64,000 bases of DNA from Micromonospora sp. R77 (GTDB lineage: Bacteria > Actinomycetota > Actinomycetes > Mycobacteriales > Micromonosporaceae). The notes under the pieces are model-generated. The model worked only from the letters and a program-made list of their open reading frames with translations, had not been told where the DNA came from and did no database searches. Every line of letters starts with the position of its first letter. The stretch's first letter is position 1. The position numbers were made by a program, and so were the translations under genes. The stretch is taken from the NCBI RefSeq assembly GCF_022747945.1, contig NZ_JALDST010000001.1, positions 6,386,001-6,450,000 on the forward strand. Reading direction: 5' to 3'. Positions 1 to 3,742 of this stretch are shown here, piece after piece.

Positions 1-2
1 GG

Positions 3-401
3 TGCGGCTGGATGGACGTGGACCTGGCGGCCTTTCCCGACGAGACGCCGGTCGACGAGGTGAAGAACCAGGGCAGCCAGTCCTTCCTGGGGTTCCTGCG
101 CGGGCTCACGCCCGACCGGGAGTGGACCGTCGGCGACGTGAAGTATCTGATCTCCCGCCCCCGCCGGGCCCGCCGCAACGCGCCGGTCACCCTCTTCGGC
201 ACCGCCGAGGAGGTCGCCGATCGGATGGAGCAGTGGCGCGACGTGGCGGGCGTGGACGGGTTCAACCTGATCCCGTGCCCGCCGACCGGCGGCGTCGACG
301 ACATCTGCGACCTGCTCGTCCCGGAGTTGCAGCGGCGGGGGATGTTCCGTACCGCGTACCGGCCCGGCGAGACGCTGCGGGAGCGTTACTTCGCGGCGTA
401 G
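3..401 (+). CDS. LLM-class flavin-dependent monooxygenase (NtaA/SnaA/DszA type), C-terminal part
   Basis: The gene is cut by the window edge; the frame is already open at base 3 and only about 130 C-terminal residues are present. The tail (GVDGFNLIPCP near residue 83, then VPELQRRGMFRTAY and LRERYF) is the typical ending of NtaA/SnaA/DszA-family luciferase-like monooxygenases, which use reduced FMN from a partner reductase to oxidise small organic substrates. The substrate cannot be read from this fragment. It ends tail-to-tail with the next gene, overlapping it by 16 bases. Confidence 0.8.
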   Translation, partial: CGWMDVDLAAFPDETPVDEVKNQGSQSFLGFLRGLTPDREWTVGDVKYLISRPRRARRNAPVTLFGTAEEVADRMEQWRDVAGVDGFNLIPCPPTGGVDDICDLLVPELQRRGMFRTAYRPGETLRERYFAA

Positions 402-1429: not shown

Positions 1430-1533
1430 GACTATCTCCTCGTCTTCACTGGTCTTTACTTGCCTTCGCTAGTATCCCTGACGATGATGTGATTTCCTCC
1501 ACGTGTGTCGTGGCGGGCGGAAGGTGGGCCGAC

Positions 1534-2211
1534 GTGACACAAGCCGAGCCGCTGTCGAGGACCCGCGTCGCGGACCTCACGGCGCTGGCCGGGCGGCTGC
1601 CCGGCACCTCGCTGATCGAGCTGTCCCGCAACGACCACGTCTATCGCGGCGGATCGCCCGACCCGCACGTCTACGTGGTCGAGCGGGGCCAGGTGAAGAC
1701 CCAGCTGGTCGCCGCGAGCGGCAAACGCTGCCTGCTCTCGGTGCACGTCACCGGTGACCTGTTCGGCGAGACGGCGCTGCTCGGGCTGGAGCGCCTGGAG
1801 ACCGCCATCGCGTTGACCCGTACGGTGCTGCGGCGCATCCCGGCGGCCTCGGCCGCCGCCGTGCTGGCCGCCGACGGCTCCCCGGACGCCCTGGCGCGTC
1901 ACCTCAGCATCCGCCTGCAGCACCAGCAGAAGGTGGTGGCGGACATGGTGACGATGGCCAGCGAGCTGCGCCTGGCCGTACGTCTGCAGGACCTGGCCCG
2001 GCGCTTCGGCCGGCCCGGCCCGGCCGGCACCCGGGTGGACATCGCCTTCACCCAGGAGGACCTGTCCGAGATGGTCGGCACCACCCGGACCCGAATCGGC
2101 CAGTTCCTCAAGAGATTCCGCGAACTGGAAATGGTGGAATTCGCCCCTCGCTCGCATGTGACGGTGCACGAAGAGCGACTTTCCGCATGGATCGAAACCG
2201 CAACGCTTTGA
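1534..2211 (+). CDS. Crp/Fnr family transcriptional regulator
   Basis: A 225-residue regulator. The N-terminal cyclic-nucleotide-binding-like barrel is recognisable (VYVVERGQVKTQLV, VTGDLFGETALLG), followed by a long dimer helix and a C-terminal winged helix with recognition segment FTQEDLSEMVGTTRTRIGQF (about residues 177-196). No Fnr-type cysteine cluster is visible, so direct oxygen sensing through an Fe-S cluster is unlikely. GTG at 1534 is preferred because a purine-rich GGCGGAAGG lies upstream; an in-frame ATG at 1489 would add 15 residues. It lies immediately upstream of the 25-residue peptide gene and is the obvious candidate regulator of the peptide and protease. Confidence 0.87.
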   Translation: MTQAEPLSRTRVADLTALAGRLPGTSLIELSRNDHVYRGGSPDPHVYVVERGQVKTQLVAASGKRCLLSVHVTGDLFGETALLGLERLETAIALTRTVLRRIPAASAAAVLAADGSPDALARHLSIRLQHQQKVVADMVTMASELRLAVRLQDLARRFGRPGPAGTRVDIAFTQEDLSEMVGTTRTRIGQFLKRFRELEMVEFAPRSHVTVHEERLSAWIETATL

Positions 2212-2229
2212 CTGCTCATTAGTGAGCAG
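2212..2229. promoter_or_regulatory. 7-4-7 perfect inverted repeat between regulator and peptide gene
   Basis: CTGCTCA-TTAG-TGAGCAG begins directly after the stop codon of the Crp/Fnr gene and ends 62 bases before the peptide ATG. The 18-bp symmetry and central spacing are similar in size to a Crp/Fnr-family operator, so it could be an autoregulatory or peptide-gene operator. It could also be a weak terminator hairpin for the regulator gene; the stem is only 7 bp and no T-run follows. Confidence 0.45.
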
Positions 2230-2291
2230 ACCGCCGGGCGTCCGACGGTGGAGGATGTGTCCAACGAACTCACCCCGTTGGGAGGGAAACC

Positions 2292-2369
2292 ATGAAGAAG
2301 CTCGTTGTGCGCAAGCTGGAGGACATCAAGACCAGCGCGAACGCGGACTGCGTTCCGTCGGCCGCCTGA
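2292..2369 (+). CDS. 25-residue candidate precursor peptide (RiPP-like)
   Basis: A tiny gene below usual ORF cut-offs. It has a very strong ribosome site (GGGAGGG, 4-5 bases before ATG) and encodes MKKLVVRKLEDIKTSA followed by NADCVPSAA. The charged N-terminal part resembles a RiPP leader, and the last nine residues, with one Cys plus Ser and Pro, could be a core. It sits between a Crp/Fnr regulator and a PqqD-like/M50 membrane protease, with a strong stem-loop right behind it, as often seen when a precursor must be made in excess over its enzymes. The product and its modification are unknown. It could also be a regulatory leader peptide. Confidence 0.6.
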   Translation: MKKLVVRKLEDIKTSANADCVPSAA

Positions 2370-2386
2370 CACAGGGCCGGATGATC

Positions 2387-2419
2387 GGCGGGAACCGGCG
2401 CGAGTCGTCGGTTCCCGCC
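2387..2419 (+). terminator. Stem-loop between peptide and protease genes (attenuator-like)
   Basis: The arms at 2387-2400 and 2406-2419 pair over 14 bp with a single G-U and a 5-base loop; the core GGCGGGAACC / GGTTCCCGCC is perfect. It starts 18 bases after the peptide stop codon and ends 42 bases before the protease ATG. No U-run follows, so partial termination or mRNA stabilisation is more likely than complete termination. Confidence 0.7.
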
Positions 2420-2461
2420 GAGCGTCGTATGCACCCGAAAAAAAATGGAAGGAATCGCGCC

Positions 2462-3742
2462 ATGGCCGCTAATACGGCTGAGTCCGTCGTCACCGTCCGC
2501 CCGTTCGTGTCGACCGTGGACGGCGCGGAGGTCATCATCGGCGACACCGACCGCAAGGTCTTTCTCGCCATTCCGGCCGAAGGGCTGGACATTCTGCACG
2601 CGCTCGCCGAGGGGCGGACCATCGGCGAGACGGCCGAACTCTTTGAACGCAAGCACGGGGAGAGCGCCGACGTCGAGGACTTCGTCGCGGTGCTGGCCGC
2701 CGAGGGCTTCGTCACCAGCGGCGACGAGCCTGCCGCCGCCGAACCGGCCCACGAACACTCGCATGCCGCGATCAAGCGGTGGAGCTTCGACTGGATCGCG
2801 CCGGAGACGGCCCGCCGGCTCACCGGCCCGGCCGTGATCCTGCCGGGCCTGGTGGTCATCCTGGCCGGGCTGGTGCTCGCGATCAGCGACCCGGGGATGC
2901 TGCCCGGTGCCCGGGCCCTGCTGTTCGAGGGCGGCAACTTCGCGGTGCTCACCGTCGTGAGCGTCACGATCGCCATGATCGGGCTGTCGCTGCACGAGTT
3001 CGCCCACGCCCTGGCAGCGCGCTCGGTGGGCGTCTCGGCGACCCTGGGCATCAGCAACCTGATGTACATCCTGGTGGCCCAGACCGACATCAGCGGCATC
3101 TGGCTGGCCTCCAAGCGCGCCCGCTACAAGGCATTCCTCGCCGGGTTCTTCGTGGACGCGTTCTTCGCCTCCCTTCTGATCAGTTTTCTCTACGCCAACC
3201 GGCACGGTGTCCTGCACTCGCCCAATTGGGCGATGCTGCTGGGCAGTGCCGCGCTGCTCACCTTCCTGGTCCGCATCGGATTCCAGTTCTTCTTCTATCT
3301 GCGTACCGATGTCTACTACGTGATCGCGGCGGCGCTGAACTGCCGCAACCTGATGTCCGACACCGAGCGTTTCCTGACCAACGGGATCAAGCGGTTGACC
3401 TTCCGCCGCGACAAGGTGGTCTCGCAGGCCGGCATTCCGCGCAAGGAGATGCGCAAGGTGCGGGTGTACGCCGGGTTCTGGGTGGTGGGCCGCATCTTCT
3501 CGCTGTTCGCCCTGGTGTTCACCATCCTGCCGGTGCTGTGGGTCTACGTCGAACAGTTCGTGCTGCTGGCGATGGACAAGCCGACCCGCTTCTCCTCGGC
3601 CGACTTCGCCACGGTGGCGGTGCTGGCGGCGCTGCTCAACGGCGGCGGCCTGGTGATGTGGGGTCGTAACCTCTGGCGCGGCTGGCAGCGCCGGCGGGCC
3701 GAGGACGCCAAGGCGCTCGCGCTGGGCACCGCGGCCGGCTGA
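2462..3742 (+). CDS. PqqD-like domain / M50-type zinc metalloprotease, membrane protein
   Basis: 426 residues. Residues about 10-85 form a small winged-helix-like module of PqqD character (VFLAIPAEGLDILHALAEG, then a helix and FVAVLAAEGFV), the fold used to bind RiPP leader peptides. A His-rich linker (HEHSH, about 98-102) follows, then at least six hydrophobic segments. HEFAH at 178-182 is the HExxH zinc motif of M50 intramembrane proteases, in a YydH/'putative peptide zinc metalloprotease' context. ATG 2462 is chosen for its GGAAGGA ribosome site; the open frame extends further upstream without coding character. Inferred role: recognise the upstream peptide and cleave, or help export, it at the membrane. 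Confidence 0.82.
   Translation: MAANTAESVVTVRPFVSTVDGAEVIIGDTDRKVFLAIPAEGLDILHALAEGRTIGETAELFERKHGESADVEDFVAVLAAEGFVTSGDEPAAAEPAHEHSHAAIKRWSFDWIAPETARRLTGPAVILPGLVVILAGLVLAISDPGMLPGARALLFEGGNFAVLTVVSVTIAMIGLSLHEFAHALAARSVGVSATLGISNLMYILVAQTDISGIWLASKRARYKAFLAGFFVDAFFASLLISFLYANRHGVLHSPNWAMLLGSAALLTFLVRIGFQFFFYLRTDVYYVIAAALNCRNLMSDTERFLTNGIKRLTFRRDKVVSQAGIPRKEMRKVRVYAGFWVVGRIFSLFALVFTILPVLWVYVEQFVLLAMDKPTRFSSADFATVAVLAALLNGGGLVMWGRNLWRGWQRRRAEDAKALALGTAAG

Follow-up and report, generated by a model that had tools for sequence, protein, structure and literature searches.

We analysed a 64,000-nucleotide stretch of the genome of Micromonospora sp. R77 (contig NZ_JALDST010000001.1, positions 6,386,001 to 6,450,000; hereafter the window), in which three adjoining genes encode a Crp/Fnr-type regulator, a 25-residue peptide behind a strong ribosome-binding site, and a PqqD-like/M50 fusion protein. 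A sequence-only reading had proposed this trio as a compact cassette for a ribosomally synthesized and post-translationally modified peptide (RiPP), and all three components are present (Table 1). The regulator matched cNMP_binding (E = 2.2e-14) and HTH_Crp_2 (1e-9); its frame is open from GTG 1489, and the start at GTG 1534, which gives 225 residues, fits the length of most close orthologues. Between it and the peptide gene, about 60 bases upstream of the latter, is a perfect inverted repeat. The peptide carries the leader motif VRKLEDIKTS and a predicted core, ANADCVPSAA. The protease has six hydrophobic stretches, and its residues H178, E179, H182 and D283 were invariant across 72 aligned sequences.

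Table 1. Features of the peptide-protease locus and of associated loci (window coordinates unless a contig is named)
Feature	Position	Strand	Support
Crp/Fnr-family regulator	1534..2211	+	Pfam matches; orthologue lengths
Perfect inverted repeat CTGCTCA-N4-TGAGCAG (spacer TTAG), candidate operator of the Crp-type regulator	2212..2229	.	
Ribosome-binding site GGGAGGG	2280..2286	+	Sequence
25-residue precursor peptide MKKLVVRKLEDIKTSANADCVPSAA	2292..2369	+	Motif, conservation and selection counts
Stem-loop between peptide and protease genes	2385..2421	+	Minimum free energy fold
RRE-M50 fusion, site-2-type membrane protease, 426 aa, ATG start	2462..3742	+	
PqqD-like RRE (RiPP recognition element) domain, about residues 10-86	2489..2719	+	Profile matches
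HEFAH zinc-binding motif, H178-H182	2993..3007	+	Alignment
D283, invariant, probable third zinc ligand	3308..3310	+	Alignment
Luciferase-like monooxygenase, C-terminal end	1..401	+	Last co-directional gene of the upstream polyketide synthase/fatty-acyl cluster; associated, not proven part
L052 clade-2 system	G000:C1 about 6301996-6303400	-	MKKIVVRKPGTVRLTTAATFYDNPLCWPF peptide, RRE-M50 protease, 693-aa TPR protein

The protease was searched for in 354 genomes of its bacterial family, 99 of which had a match at an E value of 1e-8 or better. We took up 81 of the 128 protease rows (80 fetched and the window locus); the remaining 47 were left out, many of them with open frames of more than 700 aa. 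Many of these RRE-M50-like matches have frames of 700-1270 aa and perhaps represent a fourth, longer architecture. Two loci were set aside before counting, one with the partner gene absent nearby (L063) and one on a short contig (L087). The 79 counted loci fell into three groups defined by their partner genes: clade 1 (n = 23, including the window), clade 2 (n = 35; a TPR protein of about 700 residues at 35 of 35 loci and a flavin reductase at 21) and clade 3 (n = 21; a ThiF-type E1-like enzyme). In the protease tree, clades 1 and 2 each formed a single branch (100/100 and 100/99), and the ThiF group did not form one branch. Genes were called with our own simple caller, the motif used for counting leaders was defined after many of the peptides had been inspected, and the loci are related to one another, the p-values being naive.

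A short open reading frame (ORF) with a ribosome-binding site and the leader motif lay near the protease in 75 of the 79 loci, compared with 22 of 2525 such ORFs elsewhere in the same loci; by group, the motif peptide was found at 23/23 clade-1, 35/35 clade-2 and 17/21 clade-3 loci. Alignment of 17 distinct or nearly distinct peptides gave VR[KR]xExxxxS as the clade-1 leader motif. A check for homologues lacking the peptide, VRKLE-like residues or the Cys, which the sequence-only reading had called for, found the motif and exactly one Cys at all 23 orthologous loci, and the peptides of this clade end in Ala, Val, Asn or Ser. The degenerate DNA pattern MKK-x-VV-x-K gave 14 matches in 13 of the 354 genomes, every one directly upstream of a protease match, and its reversed control gave none in the same genomes. 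The pN/pS ratio of the peptide in the window's five-species group was 0.23, silent changes dominating, and in a seven-locus clade-1 group the amino acids of the peptide were identical with four codons silently changed, the proteases there being 78-94% identical. On the pattern hits, the motif counts against background and the bias towards silent changes, we rejected a chance ORF. The peptide is a real, conserved gene that is tied to the RRE-M50 protease and under purifying selection.

Related peptide-protease pairs recur in one bacterial family, sometimes inside antibiotic-type gene clusters. Outside the family searched, one locus has a motif peptide directly upstream of the protease (L150), and another has a ThiF-type peptide, recognised by eye, two genes upstream of it (L151). 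A description of the peptide family was not found among the open-licence papers listed, which is not proof of absence; the RRE-Finder paper (PMC7470986) does not use the term 'M50' in its main text.

Between the peptide and protease genes lies a stem-loop with one compensatory pair among five close species. A stem of at least 12 pairs within 80 nt past the peptide stop was found at 21 of 23 clade-1 loci, compared with 261 of 600 other stops, and it may make peptide output exceed protease output. A short ORF with a strong ribosome-binding site and a hairpin ahead of the protease gene could also be a regulatory leader or upstream ORF that controls the protease gene only, the protease then acting on a different substrate. 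We consider this very unlikely: the amino acids are conserved despite silent codon changes, most motif peptides of the ThiF clade lie upstream of the ThiF gene and not of the protease gene, four sister-clade loci have two or three peptide genes in tandem and L123 has two copies, and the protease carries an RRE-like domain.

The first ~100 residues of the protease look like a PqqD-like RRE. The PqqD profile PF05402 matched 29 of 44 N-terminal domains of the family at E values up to 0.5 (best 1.7e-5), and a profile built from the family N-terminal domains matched the lasso RREs TbiB1 (5.6e-4) and TfuB1 (5.2e-3); sequence profiles are the sole support for the assignment of the RRE and protease folds. 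With respect to what marks RiPP systems in general, we found a conserved precursor with a leader and an RRE-like domain on the protease, binding of the leader being predicted from sequence. The sequence-only interpretation is partly supported: its RiPP-like reading of the precursor stands, and so does that of the protease as one of the leader-binding type.

By tblastn, a Crp homologue was found within 10 kb at 13 of the 23 clade-1 loci; called genes gave 12 of 23, L120 being added by tblastn, and 0 of 56 sister-clade loci. A box related to the inverted repeat (at least 11 of 14 positions) lay upstream of the peptide at 15 of 23 clade-1 loci. The regions upstream of the peptide in the sister clades gave 0 of 52, and randomly chosen stretches of the same loci gave 29 of 1640, true sites possibly being among the latter. 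All 13 clade-1 loci that have a Crp homologue in the 10-kb range carry the box, versus 2 of the 10 without one (L114 and L123; naive Fisher test, 9e-5), even if the regulator gene lies downstream in antisense orientation or, as at L115, 8.5 kb off. When one mismatch was allowed, the variant box occurred once each in 8 of 15 genomes searched, at the peptide locus only, and the control gave none. We rejected a regulator with sites across the polyketide synthase (PKS) cluster described below: no box was found at up to 3 mismatches in the cluster of the window's own genome (L131) and none at fewer than 2 in those of three relatives (L132-L134). The operator thus seems to act locally, at the peptide unit. 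The Crp/Fnr control proposed by the sequence-only reading has both a regulator and a candidate operator to act through, and the regulator would be the local switch of the peptide unit.

The sister clades have the same protease architecture as the window cassette, and their leaders are related to its own, for example VRKxGxVRLT in clade 2 and, in most of clade 3, sequences like VRKLEKIETT. They differ in having their own partner genes, and SARP-type regulators are commoner within 10 kb (13/35 loci in clade 2 and 11/21 in clade 3, versus 3/23 in clade 1). A clade-2 system (L052) is encoded in the window's own genome, about 86 kb from the cassette (Table 1), with a SARP-like regulator, recognised by eye, beyond its TPR gene. 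At four clade-2 loci (L080, L092, L098 and L101), the two or three tandem precursor genes have RLTSAA.PLY in common and differ mostly past the Cys. A Gly within the last two residues was seen in 11 of 17 ThiF-clade motif peptides (L059, L073, L074, L084, L086, L088, L089, L094, L095, L104 and L107), for example ETTVIREGNGA; such C-termini might suit activation by the E1-like enzyme.

The sequence-only reading knew of no matching RiPP class, a view that needs correction: in daptides, the intramembrane site-2 protease (MpaP/DapP) already carries an RRE at its N-terminus. Other daptide machinery is missing from the cassette. In the daptide leader ELExMEAP, L(-7) and M(-4) are essential for the partner RRE enzyme, and the precursor is cut after the motif (PMC10036551, PMC12670281). 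The two systems are alike in the N-terminal RRE on an intramembrane M50-type protease, here by sequence profiles only, and in short precursors, several per locus in some sister-clade loci. In a gapless alignment of ELExMEAP with KLEDIKTS of the window, Leu, Glu and a hydrophobic residue are equally spaced, and E(-8), M(-4) and P(-1) are not kept. From this alignment we predict a cut after KTS; by analogy the core would be ANADCVPSAA instead of the NADCVPSAA proposed earlier. Daptides end in an invariant Thr, unlike the clade-1 peptides, and differ from the window cassette with its predicted Cys core of about 10 residues, Crp-type regulator and candidate operator. Fe-dependent alcohol dehydrogenase (Fe-ADH; PF00465) was not found within 10 kb of the clade-1 protease in 23/23 genomes, as far as the contigs reach, and no aminotransferase or methyltransferase partner of the daptide type was recognised by eye beside the window cassette. 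Likewise, no YcaO gene was found within 10 kb in the 23 clade-1 genomes, contigs permitting, the nearest on the same contig being about 73 kb off (G254). The cassette may resemble the daptide release step without the rest of the daptide machinery.

Epipeptides depend on EpeE, a radical SAM epimerase, and are unlike the cassette in that no radical SAM gene (PF04055) was found within 10 kb in 5/5 genomes from the group of the window, the only ones of the 23 clade-1 genomes that this search covered; no EpeAB-like transporter was recognised beside the window cassette. The likeness to EpeX/EpeP (YydF/YydH) consists of a short precursor and a membrane M50 protease, EpeP of Bacillus being proposed to cleave and export its precursor (PMC10885120, PMC12871923). 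Pearlins are released from scaffold peptides by the M50 proteases TglG and TmoG (PMC10885120), which like the cassette protease would act on a small ribosomal peptide. A reusable carrier peptide would fit this likeness: an amino acid would be assembled at its C-terminus and then removed by the M50 protease, in the manner of TglG/TmoG. We regard this as highly improbable: the C-termini of the orthologues vary, machinery for appending amino acids was not recognised (no profile search for it was made), and no lantibiotic-dehydratase-like PEARL gene, which would encode the tRNA-dependent ligase, was recognised by eye among the neighbours, a family not covered by profile searches. A daptide, an epipeptide or a YcaO-dependent azol(in)e or thioamide product was rejected on the local absence of Fe-ADH, radical SAM and YcaO genes and on the non-Thr end, within these search scopes, and no modifying enzyme beyond the protease was identified near the cassette.

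Split RiPP pathways exist, and a tailoring enzyme encoded elsewhere could act on core residues such as Cys or Ser/Thr; the system would then be a conventional RiPP whose genes are divided between loci. The single Cys at 23/23 loci and the extra enzymes of the sister clades (TPR protein, flavin reductase, ThiF-like) speak for such an arrangement; the missing Fe-ADH, YcaO and radical SAM genes speak against it and count solely against local enzymes of these families. We hold it to be unlikely, though with an appreciable chance.

The compactness that the sequence-only reading gave the cassette needs correction, as a PKS/fatty-acyl cluster lies directly upstream, past the window edge. This type-II-like cluster (L131, G000:C1:6366500-6386400) contains two ketosynthase (KS)-type proteins, an acyl carrier protein (ACP), ketoreductase (KR) and FabZ-like genes, a thiolase, a CoA-transferase, AMP-ligases, a DsbA-like protein, a class II aldolase, a P450, a peroxiredoxin and the luciferase-like monooxygenase that ends in the window; Pfam was run on 11 of the genes, and the rest were assigned by eye or by similarity to those. 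KS, ACP and AMP-ligase genes were found upstream in the window's genome and in 3/3 relatives with fetched upstream DNA (L132-L134), and KR and FabZ-like genes by eye in L131, L132 and L134. KS, LnmK or HMGS genes occurred within 10 kb at 6 of 23 clade-1 loci (L115, L123, L126, L128, L050 and L051) versus 0 of 56 sister-clade loci. At L050, L051 and L126, the genes LnmK-ACP-HMGS-hydrolase-peptide-protease run in one direction, and at two PKS loci the end of the protease gene runs into the next gene, which is thioesterase-like at L128 (by eye) and of the DUF6039 family at L123. Longer flanks were available from 14 of the 23 clade-1 loci and from none of the sister clades, which leaves the within-10-kb counts as the only ones with a control; these wider flanks showed LnmK/HMGS genes at L116 and KS genes at L121. 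DUF6039 proteins recur beside HMGS, AMP-ligase or PKS-type genes near clade-1 loci (L123, L138 and L145).

These neighbours would suit a peptide with a structural part in the polyketide pathway next to it, the freed Cys peptide being joined to, or loaded by, the polyketide/fatty-acyl product to give a ribosomal peptide-polyketide hybrid. However, at 17 of the 23 clade-1 loci KS, LnmK and HMGS genes are all missing from the 10-kb range; the longer flanks of L114, L122 and L129 did not contain any either, the wider flank not having been fetched for L117-L120, L124, L125 and L127. The PKS types vary among loci, the 35 clade-2 loci also gave matches to the long PKS query (2), AMP-ligase (2) and P450 (1), and no enzyme joining peptide and polyketide was recognised. 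We judge such a hybrid unlikely. In a broader form, the ribosomal one-Cys peptide of about 10 residues that the RRE-M50 protease would free belongs integrally to several distinct polyketide pathways of actinomycetes, whether as a hybrid building block, as a carrier or as a dedicated inducer. PKS clusters of the type-II-like and of the LnmK/HMGS type would then have taken up the same module, and some lineages would keep it separate under its own Crp switch. We consider this proposal unlikely, though with an appreciable chance.

We favour, and consider rather probable, the reading that the three genes form a minimal RRE-M50 cassette for leader-guided release of a peptide, in which the leader is bound and cut, a Cys peptide is freed and the regulator switches the unit. 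The RRE domain would bind the leader VRKLExVKTS, with the main contacts at Leu(-7) and Ile/Val(-4), and the membrane metalloprotease would cut after KTS as in daptides. The freed product would be a peptide of about 10 residues with one Cys, predicted as ANADCVPSAA in the window, and the protease possibly exports it, as proposed for EpeP. Binding of the Crp-type regulator to the inverted repeat would switch the unit, and the stem-loop past the peptide may yield more peptide than protease.

Several observations weigh against this reading. The PqqD match of the window protease is weak by itself (PF05402, E = 0.067) and its M50 match lies under the Pfam cut-off (14.4 versus 27.2 bits). No motif peptide was found near the protease at four ThiF-clade loci (L061, L085, L100 and L103), or in the 600 bases upstream of it at the set-aside loci L063 and L087. 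Of the four peptide positions that have changed in the five-species group, three (17, 23 and 24) fall within the predicted core, and predicted cores vary from group to group; an invariant core holds for the seven-locus group alone and was rejected as a general feature. Cys is not universal, being present at 8 of 17 ThiF-clade loci with a motif peptide, and was rejected as a hallmark of the whole superfamily. By tblastn, ten of the 23 clade-1 loci lack a Crp homologue in the 10-kb range, the contig of L127 being just 7.3 kb long. With two mismatches allowed, five genomes gave 82-115 forward matches to the box per genome versus 40-72 for the reversed control; the loose search is thus unspecific, and specificity is limited to the near-exact box. 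Hairpins are common after stops in these genomes (261/600 controls).

With regard to the role of the freed peptide, the near-constant core in close species and the one Cys across clade 1 favour a signal or a fixed pathway component over a fast-diversifying antibiotic. A slowly changing core with its own switch suits a signal, and the PKS operon context suits a pathway component. It is plausible that the freed peptide is a signal and not an antibiotic.

These results extend the daptide-type RRE-M50 logic to three sister groups with very short precursors, mostly in one actinomycete family, and one of these groups, that of the window, has no recognised modifying enzyme alongside. Short ORFs of this kind are easily missed in annotation, and the leader motif together with the protease profile therefore offers a route to further members. 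The cassette makes it testable whether an RRE-guided intramembrane protease is enough by itself to release a peptide from the product of a 25-residue ORF. It also raises the question of whether that peptide would be a signal for, or a piece of, the neighbouring polyketide.

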